Part shown: positions 3,341 through 49,142 of the stretch, piece by piece | How positions within the stretch are numbered: position 1 is the first letter of the stretch | Layout of the letters: every line of letters begins with the position of its first letter | NCBI GenBank assembly: GCA_022820505.1 | Contig: JAJEFK010000026.1 | Span: 44,827-108,826 of the forward strand | Direction of reading: 5' to 3' | DNA: 64,000 nt | Source of the DNA: Acidimicrobiia bacterium | GTDB taxonomy: Bacteria; Actinomycetota; Acidimicrobiia; Acidimicrobiales; Poriferisodalaceae | The notes under the pieces: model-generated | Told to the model about the DNA's origin: nothing | The model's database searches: none | Seen by the model: only the letters and a program-made list of their open reading frames with translations | Program-made: the position numbers and the translations under genes

Positions 3341-4576
3341 TCACAGACAGGCGACGAGCTCTCGCCGGGCCGCGGTGTCGAGCACGTCCAGCGCCGCGGC
3401 CGCACTCGCACGCCAGCTATGGCGCTCGGCGCGGCGAGAACCGGCATCGCCGAGGCGCAGCGCCAGCAGCGGATCAGCGAGGATGTCGATGACCCGGCGG
3501 GCGAACGCGTCGCTGCTGCGGTCGGAGATGAGGTAGCCCGTATCGCCCTCGACGACGTTGTCGCGCAGACCGCCGACGTCGGACGCGACGACCGGTGTCC
3601 CGCACGCCGCGGCTTCGAGCGCAACCAGCCCGAACGATTCTGAGCGGCTGGGCACCAAGCACACATCGGCGGCCCGGTAGTAGGTCGACAGCAGGTAGTG
3701 CGGGAGCGGATCGACGAACCGCACGTGGTCTGTCACGGCCAGCTCGTCGGTCATGGCTTTCAGGCGGGACAGCGTGGCCTCGCCGCGCGGACCGCTGGGC
3801 CCACCGACGACGACGAGCTGGGCGTGGGCGCCCGCTGCGCCGGCAGCTCGCGTGGCTGCGAGCGTCTCAACGGCCAGCTCGGCGCCCTTCAGCGGCTGCA
3901 GGCGACCCACGAACAGCAGCACCGGTCCCGGTGGAAGGCCGATCGCTGCACGAGCCCCATGGCGCTGGCCGGGCGCGAACATGGCCCGGTCCACGCCGGG
4001 TGTCAGCACGTGGAGACGCTCGGGCGCAACGTCGTACAGCGACGTGAGCTGGGCCGCCTCAGCGTCGCCGGAGGTGAACACGGCGTCCGCGCAGTCGATA
4101 ACTCGTTGCTCCGCGTCACCCCGGTGGCGTGGCTCGGCGTCGCCGGTGCTCGTCTTGACGCGCCCCAAGGTGTGAAACGTGACTGCCAGCGGAATGTCCA
4201 AGCGGTGCTTCAGTTGGTGACCGGCCATGCCGCTCAACCAGTAGTGAGCGTGAATTGCGTCGACTGGGCGATGTGCGAGGCGTTCGCCGACCCGGTCGGC
4301 AAATGCTGCAACGACCGCCGGCAGGTCGTCCTTGTCGAGCGACGGGGCACCGGCGTCGACATGGGCGACCGTCACCCCCGACTCCACCTCGAGCTGATCG
4401 GGCTGCGACGGATCGGTGCGGCGCGTGTAGATGTCGCAGTCGACGCCGAGATGCGCCAGCGCGGCAGTGAGTTCGCGCACGTACACGTTCAAGCCGCCGC
4501 CGTCGCCGCTGCCGGGCTGGTGCAACGGCGAGGTGTGCATGCACAGCACGGCGACCCGCAAGACGCGGCCAGGCAT
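3341..4576 (-). CDS. mshA: GT4-family glycosyltransferase, MshA-like (D-inositol-3-phosphate glycosyltransferase)
   Basis: VLCMHTSPLHQPGSGDGGGLNVYVRELTAALAHLGVDCDIYTRR...HAHYWLSGMAGHQL...VPSRSESFGLVALEAAACGTPVVASDVGGL. Confidence 0.88.
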   Translation of the reverse strand: MPGRVLRVAVLCMHTSPLHQPGSGDGGGLNVYVRELTAALAHLGVDCDIYTRRTDPSQPDQLEVESGVTVAHVDAGAPSLDKDDLPAVVAAFADRVGERLAHRPVDAIHAHYWLSGMAGHQLKHRLDIPLAVTFHTLGRVKTSTGDAEPRHRGDAEQRVIDCADAVFTSGDAEAAQLTSLYDVAPERLHVLTPGVDRAMFAPGQRHGARAAIGLPPGPVLLFVGRLQPLKGAELAVETLAATRAAGAAGAHAQLVVVGGPSGPRGEATLSRLKAMTDELAVTDHVRFVDPLPHYLLSTYYRAADVCLVPSRSESFGLVALEAAACGTPVVASDVGGLRDNVVEGDTGYLISDRSSDAFARRVIDILADPLLALRLGDAGSRRAERHSWRASAAAALDVLDTAARRELVACL

Positions 4577-6010: not shown

Positions 6011-6715
6011 GTGACACAGTATTCAGAGCTGCTGGCGGTGCGGCATGGTCAATCCGAATGGAATCTGCGCGGCCGCTGGCAGGGACAGGCCGATCCGGTA
6101 TTGACCGGCCTCGGCGAGCGGCAGGCGCAGATTGCCGGCGACGCCTTGGCCACCACGCTCGCTGCCGCGGACGACAGCTGGCGGACGCCGGTGATGCGGG
6201 GGCGCGATCTGCACACCGGTCGGCATGGGTTCGACTTGCCTGCGTTCGACCTGATCGTGTCCAGCGACTTGCAGCGGGCGCGGCGGACCGCTGAGATCAT
6301 CGCCAAGCAGCTCGGCGTGGGCGATGTCGTGACCGATGAGGCACTGCGCGAGCGCAGTGCGGGACCGTGGGAAGGCCTCACCCGGGCCGAGATCGACGAG
6401 GGCTGGCCCGGCGATGTCGCAGCGAGGAGATGGCCGCCGGGCTTCGAGTCTGAAGACAGCATTGCCCGGCGGCTGCTGCCGGCGCTGCGGCGGCATATGT
6501 CCGTCTGCGGCCGCGTCCTGCTCGTGGGCCACGCAGGTGTGCTCAAGACAATCGACGCGCGTGTGGGTCTCGGCGACGAGCGGGTGCCGAACCTGGCGGG
6601 CCGCTGGTTCTGGCTCGACGGCGCAGCAGCCGACGCCACCTGGAGCTGGGATCAGCTGGAGCCTCGTAACCGGGTCGAGCTGGTCTCGTCGAACATCGAC
6701 CTCACCATCGAGTAG
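6011..6715 (+). CDS. Histidine phosphatase (phosphoglycerate mutase-like)
   Basis: LLAVRHGQSEWNLRGRWQGQADPVLTGLGERQA...SSDLQRARRTAEI; GTG start. Confidence 0.88.
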   Translation: MTQYSELLAVRHGQSEWNLRGRWQGQADPVLTGLGERQAQIAGDALATTLAAADDSWRTPVMRGRDLHTGRHGFDLPAFDLIVSSDLQRARRTAEIIAKQLGVGDVVTDEALRERSAGPWEGLTRAEIDEGWPGDVAARRWPPGFESEDSIARRLLPALRRHMSVCGRVLLVGHAGVLKTIDARVGLGDERVPNLAGRWFWLDGAAADATWSWDQLEPRNRVELVSSNIDLTIE

Positions 6716-7152: not shown

Positions 7153-7599
7153 GTGCTCGCCGTGGTGGCAGTTCCGATACGGCGCCTCGACCCCGACCTT
7201 CCGCTGCCGGCGTACGCCAAGCCCGGCGACGCAGGATGCGACCTGCTGGCCGCCGAGACGGTCACGCTGGCCGCAGCCGGTGGCCGGGCCATGGTGCCGA
7301 CCGGCATCGCCGTGGCAATCCCGCCTGGATATGCAGGTTTCGTGCAGCCCCGCAGCGGGTTGGCGTGGCGGCATGGGGTCACCTGCGTCAACTCACCCGG
7401 TCTGATCGACAGCGGCTACCGGGACGAACTGCGGGTGCTGCTGCTGAATACCGATCCGAGCGAGCCTTACGAGATCCAGCGCGGCGACCGGATCGCCCAA
7501 CTGGTCATCCAGCGAGTCGAGCAGGCCGAGTGGGACGAGGCGGATTCTCTCGACGAGACCGAGCGGGGTCTCGGAGGGTTCGGGCACTCCGGCCGCTGA
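7153..7599 (+). CDS. dut: dUTP diphosphatase
   Basis: [12 protein letters not shown]...[34 protein letters not shown]...[12 protein letters not shown]...[12 protein letters not shown]. Confidence 0.96.
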
Positions 7600-42398: not shown

Positions 42399-42590
42399 AT
42401 GTCTGAAGTTGATGAGCAGCCCGACCCAGAGGCGGTCATTGCGTCTGATGGCGACGAGTTGACCGAAGCCGAGCTGGAACAGGTCCAAGGCGCAACCGGC
42501 GTCAGCACGGGCGGCCAACAAGTCAACCCCGGGGCCGGGGCCGCCGCGTCGGGCCAGGCCAAGGCCGCGGCCGCCGCAGGACGGGTGTAA
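42399..42590 (+). CDS. Putative leader-containing precursor peptide (double-glycine-like leader ELTEAELEQVQGA)
   Basis: MSEVDEQPDPEAVIASDGDELTEAELEQVQGATGVSTGGQQVNPGAGAAASGQAKAAAAAGRV next to NHLM transporter genes. Confidence 0.6.
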   Translation: MSEVDEQPDPEAVIASDGDELTEAELEQVQGATGVSTGGQQVNPGAGAAASGQAKAAAAAGRV

Positions 42591-42695: not shown

Positions 42696-45689
42696 CTAGG
42701 CGAGCTGGCGCTCCACGAGCCGCCGGAACACGCCATCGGCACCGTACAGCTCGTCGAAGCTGCCGACCTGCACGACGCGCCCCGCCTGCATCACATAGAT
42801 GCGGTCGGCCTGCCGGATGGTCGACAGACGGTGGGCGATCACGATGCGGGTGGCGGCGAGGCGCTCAATGCCGGCCATCACCTGTGCTTGGCTGCGCGAG
42901 TCGAGCCAGCTCGTGGCCTCGTCGAGCCATACCACGCGTGGGTTTCGTGCCAACGCCGCAGCTATGCGGACTCGCTGGGCCTGCCCGCCCGAGAATGTCG
43001 AGCCTTCGGTGACGACGGTGTGCATCTGCATCGGCATCTCGGCAATCTCGTCGGCGACGTCGGCGCGACGCGCCGCATGCCACGCGTCATCGACGGTCAA
43101 GTCGTCGCCCATCCCGATGATGTTGTCGAGGAGGCTGCCCGGTTGCAGAGCGGCGTCCTGGGTGACCACGCCGAGTTGCCGACGCAGCACATGACGATCA
43201 AGGAACGCGATGTCGCGGCCGTCGTAATACACGCTGCCCGAGGTCGGGTCTTCGAGACCGAGCCCCAGCCGCATCAGCGTGCTCTTGCCGGCGCCGGAGT
43301 CGCCCACGATCGCGATGAACTCGCCCGGGCGGGCGCTGATCGACACGTCGGTGATGATCTCGGTGTCAGGGTCGTAGCGAAAGCTGACGTGGTCGAAGCT
43401 GACCTCGCCCCCGATCTCGAATCCGCCGCGGCCGATGCCGGACGGCTCCGGGCGTTCCCGCAGCACCGGGCGGACCTGCTCATACGCGGGCACTGCCGCT
43501 GCCACCGCCTCGAACGAACGGGCCAAGTTGGCCGCGGCTGCGTAAAAGGTCATGGCGACGGCGTAGACGACGAGGAAATCGCTGACCTGCAGCCGATCTC
43601 CCCCCCCGCGCCACACGGCGACCCCGCACAGGGCTGCGCCGATCAGCGCAGGCGTCGCCGCGCCCAGCGACATCAGGTGCTCGTTGAGGCGTGCAACCGC
43701 AATGGTCGCGAGCTGCTGGTCGCGATAGTGGCCCGCCCATCGTGCGAAGGCGGACGGCTCGGCGCCGGCACTGCGCAGCTTGCTGATCCCGCTGATCGAC
43801 TGCAGCAGCTCGCTGGTGGCGCGACGCTCAGCTGCGAACCTGCGCCGCTGCGGGCCGAACTGCCACAGCCCGACCAGCGCGCCGACGGCCACGCTCAGCG
43901 CACCCAGCGCGAGGCTGACCAGCGCGAGCGTCAGGTCATAGGCGAAGGGGATCGCAAGCGTGGGCGCCAGGAACGCCACCGCCAGCAGCGAGTTCGCCAC
44001 CACACCCGACACTTGATCGCGCATCCACTGGAAGCTCGCCATGCGCGAGGCGAGATCGCCGGTCGTGAACCTCCGAAGGAAACTCGGCGGAAGCGACAGC
44101 ACACGATCCCAGGCTGCGGCACTGACGCGTGCCGCAGCGCGCCCTTCGATACGCATCAGCGAGGTCCCGAGCAGAATCTGCAACACCACGCCCACCGCGG
44201 CGAAGCCGGCGAGAGCGATCATCACCTGAACCAGCATGTCGCCGGCCGCGCTCACGAGCACCCAGTCGGTGAGCACACCGACTGCCACCGCCGGCACCTG
44301 CATCAGCACAGCCGCGACAAGCCCGACCGCAACGAAGCGCACCAGATCTCCCGCGAGCCCTTGACGGGCGACGCGGGCAAGGTCGCGTGCGCTCGCCGGC
44401 TTCTCAGGCGGAAACGTCGGGTAGCACAGCCAAGCCGTCTCCGCGAGTTCGGCGGCGCGCTCGGCGCTGAGGCGACGTGAGGTTCCGTCGACAGGATCGA
44501 CCACGCGATAGCGGCCGGTCCAATGCGGCAGCAGCGCTACCGGCTGACCATCTGCTGCGCGGCGGCCCAGCATCGCGCCGCTGTCGCCGAGCCACCAGCG
44601 GTCCTCGGAGCTGAGCCGCACCTCGCGCGCTCGCACGCCCGATGCGCGCACGACGTCGGCCAAGCTGGGCTCAGCGTCGCCCGAGTCGCCATAACGGACC
44701 GGCGCCCGGAAGTCGATGCCTTGGCGCTTGCCGATCAGCGCCAGCGCCGACATCAGCATCGAGGCGCCGTGCACGTCCTGCGTGGGGTGGCGTTCATGGA
44801 TCCGGCTGAGGCCGACCGCAGCCGACTCGGCGTCACGGCGGCGCAGCGCCTCGCGTGCGGTCTGCTCGTTGACCGCATCGGCGCGCGCCAGCATCCGGTT
44901 GAGCTGCTCCGCGCTCAGCGCGAGCCGATGAAAGTCGTCGAGCGCTTCGAGGAGCCGGCCGTCGGCTGCGAGGCCCGCCGAGGTGGAGATGCGCAGCGTG
45001 CCGTGGGGGGGGGCGGTGAGCCAGGTGTCGGAGGTCAACGGCACGGCGGCGGTGGACTGCGAGAGCGTTTCGGTGCCCAAATAGGCGACATCGACGGCAT
45101 CGGACGCGGCCCACGCAACGGTGCCAGGCCGCGCCGACACGATCGTGGCGACGGCTGAGGCGGGCAGGCTCTGTGAGGCAGCGGGGTCGACGACGGCATC
45201 GGGGCGCGGGCGCGGCTCGATCGGTTCAGCAATAGCGCGCGAGACCGAGGCGATCCAGGCGTCGGCCTGAGCGGCGAGCTCGTCGGCCAGTGCGGGATCG
45301 GCCAGATCCGAGCGCTGCAGCCTCGCCAGTCGCGTGCCGGGCAGGCCCTTGCCGACGGCGGTCAATGACACACCGCTCGCCTCGAACCCGAACACCAGCT
45401 GACCCGCTTGGACGCGTGCCACATGGCGTGCGCTCGAGGCGGCCTGTCCGTCATCGACTTCGAACAGGAACACATCGACTGCGCCGCGAACCACGAGGCA
45501 GACCTGAGACGGATCGTCGAGCGTGATGGGCATGTTGGCCGCGCTCGACACGTCTTCGCTCTCGTCCAGCGCGACCCGCGCGATGAGCGACGTGCGGCTC
45601 ATCTGCGCCAGCGCGGCCTCCGCAGGCTGAGCATCGTGCGGGCGTCCGTCATCGCCCCACGTTGCCGATGCCGCCCGCAGCGTGCTCAT
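42696..45689 (-). CDS. NHLM-type bacteriocin ABC transporter (permease/ATPase, long N-terminal region)
   Basis: 997 aa; VGDSGAGKSTLMRLGLGLEDPTSGSVYYDG, TFSGGQAQRVRIAAAL, VVWLDEATSWLD; N-terminal regulatory-like region; overlaps next gene. Confidence 0.85.
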   Translation of the reverse strand: MSTLRAASATWGDDGRPHDAQPAEAALAQMSRTSLIARVALDESEDVSSAANMPITLDDPSQVCLVVRGAVDVFLFEVDDGQAASSARHVARVQAGQLVFGFEASGVSLTAVGKGLPGTRLARLQRSDLADPALADELAAQADAWIASVSRAIAEPIEPRPRPDAVVDPAASQSLPASAVATIVSARPGTVAWAASDAVDVAYLGTETLSQSTAAVPLTSDTWLTAPPHGTLRISTSAGLAADGRLLEALDDFHRLALSAEQLNRMLARADAVNEQTAREALRRRDAESAAVGLSRIHERHPTQDVHGASMLMSALALIGKRQGIDFRAPVRYGDSGDAEPSLADVVRASGVRAREVRLSSEDRWWLGDSGAMLGRRAADGQPVALLPHWTGRYRVVDPVDGTSRRLSAERAAELAETAWLCYPTFPPEKPASARDLARVARQGLAGDLVRFVAVGLVAAVLMQVPAVAVGVLTDWVLVSAAGDMLVQVMIALAGFAAVGVVLQILLGTSLMRIEGRAAARVSAAAWDRVLSLPPSFLRRFTTGDLASRMASFQWMRDQVSGVVANSLLAVAFLAPTLAIPFAYDLTLALVSLALGALSVAVGALVGLWQFGPQRRRFAAERRATSELLQSISGISKLRSAGAEPSAFARWAGHYRDQQLATIAVARLNEHLMSLGAATPALIGAALCGVAVWRGGGDRLQVSDFLVVYAVAMTFYAAAANLARSFEAVAAAVPAYEQVRPVLRERPEPSGIGRGGFEIGGEVSFDHVSFRYDPDTEIITDVSISARPGEFIAIVGDSGAGKSTLMRLGLGLEDPTSGSVYYDGRDIAFLDRHVLRRQLGVVTQDAALQPGSLLDNIIGMGDDLTVDDAWHAARRADVADEIAEMPMQMHTVVTEGSTFSGGQAQRVRIAAALARNPRVVWLDEATSWLDSRSQAQVMAGIERLAATRIVIAHRLSTIRQADRIYVMQAGRVVQVGSFDELYGADGVFRRLVERQLA

Positions 45690-47887
45690 TGCGACCGCAC
45701 CAGCTGGCTATAGAGGCCGTCGGCGTCGGCGAGCAGCGTGTCGTGGCTGCCCCGCTGCACCTCCCGGCCGCCGTCCATGACGATGATCTGGTCGCAGTCG
45801 CGGATCGTGCTGAGACGGTGCGCGACAATGAGGCACGAGCAGCCGCGACGGCGCAACGCGTCGTCGATGCGCCGTTCGGTCTCGGCGTCGAGCGTGCTGG
45901 TGGCCTCGTCGAGCAGCAGCACCGAGGGGCGAGCGACAAGAGCACGCGCTATCTCGAGCCGTTGGCGCTGGCCGCCGCTGAAGTTGGCGCCCCCTTCCCG
46001 GACATGGGCCTCATAGCCGCCGCGTCGGCGCATGATGTCGTCGTGGATCATGGCGTCGCGCGCTGCGGCCACCATGTCCGCCTCCGAAGCGGCGGCATTC
46101 CACATGGTGATGTTGTCGCGCACGCTGCCGTCGAACAGCGCTATCTGCTGATCGACCGTGGCCACCGATCCGACGAAGACCGGGCGCGGGATCTCACGCG
46201 TCGGCACACCGTCGAAGAGGACCTCACCCGACCACGGCTCGAACTCGCCGCTGACCAGGCGCAGCAGCGTCGATTTCCCCGAGCCGGTCGGCCCTACCAC
46301 CGCGATGCGCTGGCCGGGCTCGATGGCGAGGCTGAGCCCGTCGATGAGCGGTTCGGTCCGACCCCGGTAGCCGAAGCGAAGCTCGCTCACCTCCACCCGG
46401 CCCGCCAGCCGCAGGCAGCCATTCAGCGTCATCACGCGGCCGGGCTGCGACCCGTCGCCGGTATCGCCTGCCGCGTCGGCGGCAACCGCGGGGTCCGGCT
46501 CGGCTGCGGAGATGTCGCGCACCCGCTGCACATCGGCGCCGAGCAGCTCGAACGTGTCCACGTACAGCACGAAGCGCCCGATGGGAGCGAGGAAGCTGCC
46601 TGCCAGGACGTACACGGCGATCAGCTCGCCGATGCTGAGATCCCCTTCGATGACCTGCCAGCCGCCGAGCCCCAGCACGACCAGCGTGCCGCACGCGAGG
46701 AACAGCCCCGGCAGCGCCGCGTTCACATACGCCAGCTCGACCACCCGCTGACGAGCCGAGAGCTCGCGCGCTTGGTGGCCGCTCCAGCGGACGAAGAAGT
46801 CGTTCTCGGCTGCGGTGGCGCGCAGCATGTCGGCTTGGCGCAGCCCGGTGGTCTCGATGCCGAACAGCAGGGCCTGCTCGCGCCGCAGCAGCCGCTGGTG
46901 ATCCGTGCGGCGCAGGCTCACCAAGCGCGCGATGGCGACGTTGATCAGTGCTACAGCCAGCACGCTCGCGGCAATGAGCGGGTCGTAGACCACAAGCAGC
47001 GCCCACAACGCGACACTGGTCACCAGTTCCACAGCGAGTCCCACGAGATGTCGGCCGGCGCCATCGGCGATCTCGTCCACCAATCCGACTCGGGTGGTGA
47101 GATCGCCCGCGAAGCGGTGAGCGAAGTACTGCTTGGGCAGGCGCAGCAGATGCTGCAGCAGTCGCTGGGAACGCACCACGGCTACGCCGATGGCGATCCG
47201 GCGCAGCATGCGCTGCTGCAGCCAAGTCAGCAGGTAGACCGCAGCGCCCGCCAGCGCCATGGCGGCAACCACGAAGCCGCCCCAGTGGGGCGCCTCGCCG
47301 CCCAAGACGCTGTCGACGAAGACGCCGAGCAGCACGGGCAGCGCGAGGGCCGGGATTGCCAGCAGCAGCCCGGCCAGCGCCACGTATGCGAGTGCGCCGC
47401 GGGTGCCCGCAAGCCACGGCCACAGTGCACGCCACGCACTGGGGCGCTCCCCGACTGGCCGAAATGACGCCGTCGGCGACGCGGTGAGCACCACGCCCGC
47501 GTATGCGCGCTCCAGAGTCGAACGGCTCACGCGGCGACGGCCATTGGCCGGATCGTTCAGGTGGTACCGGTCGCCGACGATGCCTTCGAGCACCAAGAAG
47601 TGGTTGAACTCCCAGTACAGGATGGCCGGCAGGTCTGTCTCAGCCAGCGAGTCGACCTCCTTGCGCCAGCCGCGGACCTCCATGCCGTGCTTGTTGCCGG
47701 CGCGCACGATCCCTGCGGCACTGGCGCCGTCACGGCCGACGCCGCAGTCGTCCCGCAATTCCTCCAAGGGAACCCAGCGGCCGAAATGGGCCATGACGGC
47801 TGCCAGCGACGCTGCTCCGCATTCGGCCGCTTCAAGCTGAGGAATCAGCGGCGTGCGAATGCTGCGTCGTCGCAGCTGCGTCGGCAC
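45686..47887 (-). CDS. NHLM-type peptidase C39/permease/ATPase bacteriocin exporter
   Basis: IPQLEAAECGAASLAAVMAHFGR, FNHFLVLEG, LNDPANGRR (C39 Cys/His/Asp); VGPTGSGKSTLLRL; FSGGQRQRLEIARAL. Confidence 0.92.
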   Translation of the reverse strand: MPTQLRRRSIRTPLIPQLEAAECGAASLAAVMAHFGRWVPLEELRDDCGVGRDGASAAGIVRAGNKHGMEVRGWRKEVDSLAETDLPAILYWEFNHFLVLEGIVGDRYHLNDPANGRRRVSRSTLERAYAGVVLTASPTASFRPVGERPSAWRALWPWLAGTRGALAYVALAGLLLAIPALALPVLLGVFVDSVLGGEAPHWGGFVVAAMALAGAAVYLLTWLQQRMLRRIAIGVAVVRSQRLLQHLLRLPKQYFAHRFAGDLTTRVGLVDEIADGAGRHLVGLAVELVTSVALWALLVVYDPLIAASVLAVALINVAIARLVSLRRTDHQRLLRREQALLFGIETTGLRQADMLRATAAENDFFVRWSGHQARELSARQRVVELAYVNAALPGLFLACGTLVVLGLGGWQVIEGDLSIGELIAVYVLAGSFLAPIGRFVLYVDTFELLGADVQRVRDISAAEPDPAVAADAAGDTGDGSQPGRVMTLNGCLRLAGRVEVSELRFGYRGRTEPLIDGLSLAIEPGQRIAVVGPTGSGKSTLLRLVSGEFEPWSGEVLFDGVPTREIPRPVFVGSVATVDQQIALFDGSVRDNITMWNAAASEADMVAAARDAMIHDDIMRRRGGYEAHVREGGANFSGGQRQRLEIARALVARPSVLLLDEATSTLDAETERRIDDALRRRGCSCLIVAHRLSTIRDCDQIIVMDGGREVQRGSHDTLLADADGLYSQLVRSQ

Positions 47888-47893
47888 GGGCGC

Positions 47894-48475
47894 CTACCAG
47901 AGGCCGACGGTGGCGATGAAGCGAATCGGCGAGCGGTGCTCGGTCACGATGCGCACACGGCAGGCACTGCCCGACAGCGCCGCGCCGGAGGCGTCATCGG
48001 TCAGTTCCAGCCAGACACGGTGTGTGGCGGCAGGGTCCCGCAGCGCGGTGTCGAGCAGAAATTCGCTTCTTTGCGAGTCGCCGAGCATGACTTCCCGGAC
48101 GACTGCGCCCAAGGCGCCGTCGGTGCCAACCGGTGTTACACGCGCACCCATGCCGACCGTGACATCACTCGCTTGATGAGGGTTGAGGAGCGCGAGAACT
48201 GCCGGTTGCGAGTTCGCAGGCACAGCAACGTCTGCGCTTGACGCTTCACCGACGTTGTCACGCCCTACGAGCAGGCAGTCGGCTGAATGGCCCCGCTCAA
48301 TCGTCCCGAAGACCGTCCAAGCCAGCACGCCCAGCAGCGCCGCGGCGAGCAGCGCCAGGAACAGCCACTCGTGCGGTGCTGTGATGCGCAGCAGCCCGTC
48401 GACGGGTTCGGCCCGCCCACGGCGAGCGAGGGCTTCCTCGCGAAACAGATGTCTGCGTCGTGCCATCGGATTCAC
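47894..48475 (-). CDS. Compact HlyD-like / NHLM secretion adaptor
   Basis: RHLFREEALARRGRAEPVDGLLRITAPHEWLFLALLAAALLGVLAWTVFGTI; one TM near the N-terminus. Confidence 0.7.
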   Translation of the reverse strand: MNPMARRRHLFREEALARRGRAEPVDGLLRITAPHEWLFLALLAAALLGVLAWTVFGTIERGHSADCLLVGRDNVGEASSADVAVPANSQPAVLALLNPHQASDVTVGMGARVTPVGTDGALGAVVREVMLGDSQRSEFLLDTALRDPAATHRVWLELTDDASGAALSGSACRVRIVTEHRSPIRFIATVGLW

Positions 48476-48580: not shown

Positions 48581-48748
48581 CTACTTGTTGGATCCCGAAT
48601 AGTTGTTCTGGGTCGTGTGAGTGCTGTAGGGGGATGACGAGCTGCTCGACCCAGACCCTTTGCCGCCGCTCACGTGCTGCAGCTCCTCAGAGGTGAGCTC
48701 GCGCTCGTCGATGTCTCCTTCAACGGGGGGGACCTTCGCATCAGACAT
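48581..48748 (-). CDS. Putative leader-containing precursor peptide 1
   Basis: MSDAKVPPVEGDIDERELTSEELQHVSGG|KGSGSSSSSSPYSTHTTQNNYSGSNK; GGAGG RBS; below the 60-aa ORF cutoff. Confidence 0.75.
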   Translation of the reverse strand: MSDAKVPPVEGDIDERELTSEELQHVSGGKGSGSSSSSSPYSTHTTQNNYSGSNK

Positions 48749-48880
48749 CCAGCAACCTCCAGAGGCCGACTCGGAACGGCCAGTATGTCACAGCAGCAGC
48801 CACGACGCGAAACTCGCCCAAGCAGCGCGGCATGTCTGCAGAAACCAAGGCCGACGCCGACACGCCCGGGGGTACGACTT

Positions 48881-49038
48881 CTAGATGTGATAGTAGGACG
48901 AGTGTGCGTTGTTATACGCAGTCGTCTTGTTGCCACCGCCGCTCACATCTTGGAGCTCTTCGGAAGTCAGCTCGCGCTCGTCGACATCCGCTTCAACGGG
49001 GGGGGGGGGGAGGCCTTCTCGACCTTCGCATCAGACAT
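48881..49038 (-). pseudogene. Putative precursor peptide 2, out of frame as assembled because of a G13 tract
   Basis: MSDAKVEKASPPP[frameshift]VEADVDERELTSEELQDVSGG|GNKTTAYNNAHSSYYHI; same RBS and upstream region as peptide 1. Confidence 0.65.
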
Positions 49039-49142
49039 TCAGCAACCTCCAGAGGCTAACTCGGGACGCCCAGTATGTCACAGCCATCGCAGCAGCCAAA
49101 ACACTGGATACGTCCGGCTGCTCATTCGAACAGAGCGGCGCT

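Follow-up and report, generated by a model that had tools for sequence, protein, structure and literature searches.

The stretch of DNA analyzed here (64,000 nt, hereafter the window) encodes a family of small, probably secreted peptides together with an NHLM-type exporter, and one of the precursors, precursor B, is probably phase variable by means of a poly-C tract within its leader. Differences in tract length among species, conservation of the sequence that follows the tract, the presence of NucS without MutS, and the sites at which other G/C tracts occur in the genome together point to phase variation of B. The gene anatomy, the identity of the exporter, the break in the reading frame, the tract lengths of three species, and the absence of MutS were observed directly.

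Results

Anatomy of the precursors

The minus strand carries two leader/core units, whose ATGs (48748 and 49038) are 290 bp apart, in agreement with the coordinates and spacing of a preliminary description of this DNA. Precursor A (48581..48748, minus strand; from the ORF listing) is intact and encodes 55 aa, in which MSDAKVPPVEGDIDERELTSEELQHVSGG is followed by the core KGSGSSSSSSPYSTHTTQNNYSGSNK. Precursor B (48881..49038, minus strand) is interrupted in frame, and the same gene occurs in two congeneric genomes, G001 and G003. It consists of an ATG and MSDAKVEKAS at 49011-49038, a run of 13 C, and then VEADVDERELTSEELQDVSGG and the core GNKTTAYNNAHSSYYHI at 48881-48997. The two units matched each other with E = 1.8e-8 in a whole-genome search, and the shared leader (...DERELTSEELQ.VSGG) and both cores quoted earlier were borne out by the sequence. 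Also present in both places was the shared upstream block, which on inspection of the minus strand runs from GTGACATACTGG to CCTCTGGAGGTTGCTG 5' of A (48750..48791), contains a Shine-Dalgarno-like GGAGG, and might include a promoter. Its direct-repeat partner precedes B at 49040..49081 (minus strand), and the two blocks have the common pattern GTGACATACTGG...CCTC.GGAGGTTGCTG. A consensus scan for sigma-70 promoters and terminators around the A/B pair found none, such a scan being uninformative for this bacterial group.

The preliminary description had taken both copies for genes that merely fell under an ORF-length cutoff, and in doing so had read through the interruption of B at C13. From its own ATG, B reads MSDAKVEKASPPPPLKRMSTSAS and then reaches a stop, for a total of 23 codons, and no start codon occurs in the frame encoding VEADVDERELTSEELQDVSGG-GNKTTAYNNAHSSYYHI. 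Of the tandem pair, only A forms an open reading frame. The homopolymer shifts the frame of B in all three species that keep this copy, and an intact A/B tandem pair is ruled out for B, since the frame of its ATG is broken at the C tract.

A third precursor, overlooked previously, is encoded on the plus strand at 42399..42590, convergent to the second exporter gene (ABC2). This unannotated gene, precursor C, encodes 63 aa (MSEVDEQPDPEAVIASDGDELTEAELEQVQGA followed by the Ala/Gly-rich core TGVSTGGQQVNPGAGAAASGQAKAAAAAGRV) with GA in place of GG; it matched the leader profile described below with E = 8.9e-13 and has orthologues in G001, G002, and G003. Leaders of this family are about 22-35 aa long. 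The GG-leader consensus (R/K)ELX3E(I/L)X2(I/V)XG(G/A), quoted by Wang et al. (2011, PMC3140520), is matched by A (RELTSEELQHVSGG) and B (RELTSEELQDVSGG) and, from EL onward, by C (ELTEAELEQVQGA). Searches of NCBIfam and Pfam returned only weak GG-bacteriocin-leader matches for A, e.g., TIGR01847 (bacteriocin_sig) at 15.5 bits vs. a cut-off of 15.7, and the same libraries revealed no nitrile-hydratase-like or Nif11-like leader domain on A, by which an NHLP/Nif11 precursor was rejected. Neither LanC (PF05147) nor YcaO (PF02624) is present in the genome, so lanthipeptides and thiazole/oxazole peptides made by the usual enzymes were likewise rejected. The precursor cores are of low complexity, 17-31 residues long, hydrophilic, and free of cysteine, and those of A and B are unrelated to each other. 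None matched a known toxin or a known pheromone in NCBIfam or Pfam, and no immunity or regulatory gene was recognised.

Exporter and gene neighborhood

A gene for a HlyD-like adaptor and two exporter genes adjoin A on the same strand, with purine-biosynthesis genes, purM first, upstream of the locus and malic enzyme downstream. NHLM exporter 1 (45686..47887, minus strand; 733 aa) combines a C39 peptidase, a permease, and an ATPase; it scored 857.2 bits against TIGR03796 (cut-off 853.3) and 4.8e-31 against Pfam Peptidase_C39, and its catalytic residues Q17, C23, H96, and D112 are invariant across four aligned exporters. NHLM exporter 2 (42696..45689, minus strand; 997 aa) has a permease and an ATPase and no peptidase, and covers the full TIGR03797 profile at 677.4 bits, just below the cut-off of 709.4. 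The adaptor (47894..48475, minus strand) is short, with 193 aa against a family model of 421, and fails TIGR03794: residues 24-75 alone matched, at profile positions 7-58 of 421, giving 24.8 bits vs. a cut-off of 156.2.

Leader, exporter, and cores across the genus

We compared 11 congeneric genomes, all draft assemblies, among which G000 is the present one. The TIGR03796 exporter exceeded its cut-off in seven of them (G000 and six congeners). A profile of ten leaders had its hits in these same seven genomes, each with a best E of ≤4.6e-6, and detected no leader in the four exporter-less congeners, where the best E was 0.09 (Fisher p = 0.003). Single hits arise partly by construction, since some leaders of the profile were taken from these genomes; the absence from the four exporter-less genomes does not. 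Together with the fit to the GG consensus and the adjacent, intact C39 domain, this perfect co-occurrence within the genus supports the earlier suggestion that the units are precursors of exported, leader-processed peptides.

Precursor A has orthologues in G001, G002, G003, and G007. In G007, it is an orphan beside purM, preceded by a block resembling the upstream block of A, and the exporter lies elsewhere with another precursor, SGAAKRNAYNAAQQPWQATI. Between G000 and G007, the core of A differs by 10 nonsynonymous and 2 synonymous codon changes, and the end of the leader by 1 nonsynonymous and 5 synonymous. The B-like core SGAAKRNAYNAAQQPWQATI, however, is identical in G007 and a second species (L015 7096-7278, minus strand; L036 about 4381-4479, plus strand), with 7 synonymous and 0 nonsynonymous changes; the leader of the second species differs, and its exporter is 84% identical. 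The cores had been called hypervariable; the unrelated cores of A and B and the drift of the A core are in keeping with this, but since cores are constrained in one lineage and drift in another, the term is too strong.

Copy B is missing from G002, where the deletion joint falls inside the repeated upstream blocks; loss of B in this manner would be expected from direct-repeat recombination. Elsewhere in the genus, a congener (G004, L017 6645-7559, minus strand) has three GG-leader precursors in tandem near its exporter, with cores that are longer and unrelated. For the exporter, the named relatives come from metagenome bins of Acidimicrobiia, many of which we take to be sponge-derived from the bin names (RHO, IRC, CAR, APA) and from general knowledge; the host bacterium is probably sponge-dwelling. 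A bin assigned to Chloroflexota (JAPPNI010000027.1; L037) has an exporter 70% identical to that of the window and its own GG-leader precursors, for which inter-phylum transfer or a binning error are possible explanations.

Poly-C tract of copy B

The proposed ON/OFF switch of B, as read from the sequence, is a tract of 13 C on the coding strand (G13 on the plus strand) at 48998..49010, minus strand. The tract is C13 in G000, C10 in G001, and C12 in G003, each length being taken from one draft assembly per species and every allele seen being out of frame, i.e., OFF. Lengths that would place B in frame are those of 2 modulo 3 (8, 11, or 14). These length differences occur among genomes whose exporter DNA diverges by only 2-4%. 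In G003, copy A has the same leader with C10 and then GG, in frame. A first-order Markov model of the window gives an approximate expectation of 0.1 C/G runs of at least 13 in the whole 3.29-Mb genome, so the C13 tract is beyond chance. A pattern search of the genome returned only eight C runs of at least 11, at six places, with the B tract among them.

Across the three species, the post-tract frame of B contains no stop codon and no other indel, and its three substitutions comprise two silent changes and one S to P. Since three changed sites in three species are too few for a dN/dS codon test, we compared site counts with flanking DNA instead. Variation was found at 3 of 117 post-tract sites vs. 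25 of 235 flanking noncoding sites (p = 0.007); measured against the B-A spacer alone (10 of 132 sites), the difference was not significant (p = 0.09).

Mismatch repair and other G/C tracts

All 11 genomes encode NucS and lack the mismatch-recognition domain of MutS. The NucS of Mycobacterium smegmatis leaves indels of 1-2 bp unrepaired (PMC11551767). With NucS and no MutS, indels in tracts would not be efficiently repaired in this genus either.

Most of the other long G/C tracts are found where genes for exported proteins begin or within a gene for a type IIG methyltransferase; signal peptides were called by eye, and this GC-rich genome abounds in long spurious ORFs. Exported proteins and restriction-methyltransferases are the usual targets of phase variation. 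Three of these tracts, each 11-12 long, are out of frame in the G000 assembly: on contig C12 (L118), the tract at 4104 separates a signal-peptide-like start from a 1366-aa frame; on contig C43 (L122), that at 7500 separates a signal-peptide-like start from a 1075-aa Calx-beta frame; and on contig C16 (L119), that at 6016 separates a short start from the signal-peptide-like segment of a Calx-beta/fn3 protein. The 1366-aa frame of L118 (3-4100, minus strand) holds a pyruvate phosphate dikinase ATP-binding domain (PF01326, 2.3e-20), an unusual combination with a signal-peptide-like start and a C tract. On contig C40, a tract lies upstream of an exported-protein frame.

The 3' part of the type IIG restriction-methyltransferase gene (contig C21:58000-70000, L120; 3665-4214) contains three G/C tracts of 18, 15, and 13. 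The 13-G tract breaks the methyltransferase frame (PADLOC 1.5e-191), and a 12-G tract occupies the same place in the G003 orthologue (L157); the restriction system is probably phase variable. G003 also has a Calx-beta-like protein with a tract at the same place as in G000, and tracts in further exported-protein and restriction-like genes. In two other congeners, several G and C tracts are clustered within about 200 bp (G002:C99:19-217 and G004:C22:119003-119229).

Discussion

The main rival to phase variation is that B is a dying pseudogene: its C tract would have expanded after duplication and broken the frame, A and C would be the sole functional precursors, and the conservation of B would reflect recency or gene conversion with A. 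We consider this account unlikely. It accommodates the out-of-frame state of 3/3 alleles and the outright loss of B from G002 through a deletion whose joint is in the repeated upstream blocks, and the comparison with the spacer alone (only p = 0.09) leaves room for it. Decay, however, should let substitutions break up the tract, which is still long (10-13), and is difficult to reconcile with a post-tract frame that is free of stops and other indels in three species and in which two of three substitutions are silent. Moreover, like tracts occur at the frame junctions of other intact-looking genes in the same genome, and a B-like core elsewhere appears to be under strong purifying selection (7 silent, 0 replacement).

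It is improbable that B is expressed through slippage in transcription or a ribosomal frameshift at the C run, with a constant, low amount of peptide B and no inherited ON/OFF states. A programmed frameshift in one fixed direction is unlikely across the three species, since the correction needed by a tract of 12 is opposite to that needed by tracts of 13 and 10; the tract is nevertheless long enough to slip, and the frame of the core is preserved, as this mechanism would require. We regard it as highly improbable that the tract owes its length to errors of assembly or sequencing and that B is an ordinary, intact precursor. While these are draft assemblies, and some sequencing methods are prone to errors in homopolymers of 12-13, a long and out-of-frame tract recurs in the separate assemblies of three species, one of which has only 10 C, where short-read errors should be rare; even then, a long homopolymer would be left in the leader in all three species.

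In the phase-variation model that we favor, A, C, and in-frame B would each carry an acidic leader of the double-glycine type (GG or GA). Cleavage after GG would fall to the C39 domain of the neighboring NHLM-type ABC transporter, and the exporter, its peptidase-less partner, and the shortened HlyD would release the core peptide. Replication slippage would change the length of the C tract of B and so switch it reversibly, with A always in frame. Since only lengths of 2 modulo 3 join the ATG to the end of the leader and the core, cells would alternate between making and not making peptide B. Candidate roles for the peptides are inter-bacterial antagonism, signaling, and a contribution to the biofilm matrix. 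Most pore-forming bacteriocins are unlike these hydrophilic, cysteine-free cores, and signaling or a part in the matrix (cf. EbfG) is no less likely than killing. We would give roughly even chances to a broader proposal: that these MutS-free, probable sponge symbionts have a set of poly-G/C switches in their exported proteins and DNA methyltransferases as well as in a leader-processed peptide, and that cells within one host secrete different peptide mixtures, with one exporter serving an always-on A, a GA-leader C, and a stochastic B.

Control of leader-processed peptides is commonly ascribed to regulators. If real, a frame switch within the leader would make peptide output stochastic and heritable, as in phase-variable surface proteins, and could offer an uncultured, probably host-associated bacterium a way to hedge among competing, signaling, and hiding. 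Genome miners searching for ribosomal peptides will overlook such genes, since precursor B cannot be found as an ORF. The combination of NucS without MutS and of shared tracts marks this genus as a place to seek more switches of this kind.

Comparison with known systems

Haft et al. (2010, PMC2887384) described the NHLM three-gene cassette (TIGR03794, TIGR03796, TIGR03797) together with NHLP and Nif11 leaders. The present locus resembles it in having a C39-peptidase transporter that exceeds the family cut-off, a peptidase-less partner, and small GG-motif precursors alongside; however, the leaders are short and lack a nitrile-hydratase or Nif11 domain, the HlyD of 193 aa is below its cut-off, and the genome is without LanC and YcaO. 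Closest in layout are the cyanobacterial double-glycine bacteriocin clusters of group V (Wang et al., 2011, PMC3140520), which have a HlyD, a short C39 transporter, a second transporter without peptidase, and about three precursors per cluster; many of these precursors lack an NHLP or N11P leader, show little conservation of the core, and are unannotated. The differences are that the host here is actinobacterial and that a hypermutable homopolymer lies within the leader of one precursor. EbfG1-4 of Synechococcus elongatus are likewise small GG-motif proteins, secreted by the C39-peptidase transporter PteB and involved in biofilm development (PMC4997328). The likeness is one of description, the organism is different, and the parts of that report consulted do not mention phase variation.

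Frame switching at G/C homopolymers has precedents among actinobacteria, i.e., the phase variation of pglX through a G tract in Streptomyces (PMC4365076) and the polymorphic G/C homopolymer tracts of Propionibacterium acnes (PMC4746626), although what varies in those cases is a phage-defence methyltransferase or other genes and not a precursor of an exported peptide. In the literature searched, we found neither a hypermutable tract in the leader of one of several NHLM precursors in a MutS-free actinobacterium nor reports on NHLM in sponges or on phase variation in sponge symbionts. The closest, partial precedent is the nap island of Neisseria, in which tracts in napR (poly-G, with loss of the GG leader) and napC (poly-T) were proposed to confer phase variation (PMC11798529). 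There, too, homopolymers accompany GG-leader, C39-processed peptides; however, the peptides are unrelated to those described here and are cationic rather than hydrophilic, the exporter is NapP/NapF, and the tract of B, unlike those of the nap island, lies within a conserved leader that is paralogous to an unswitched copy. Peptides with a GG leader and an NHLM exporter form a known class, within which the proposed homopolymer switch inside the leader would be a new type.
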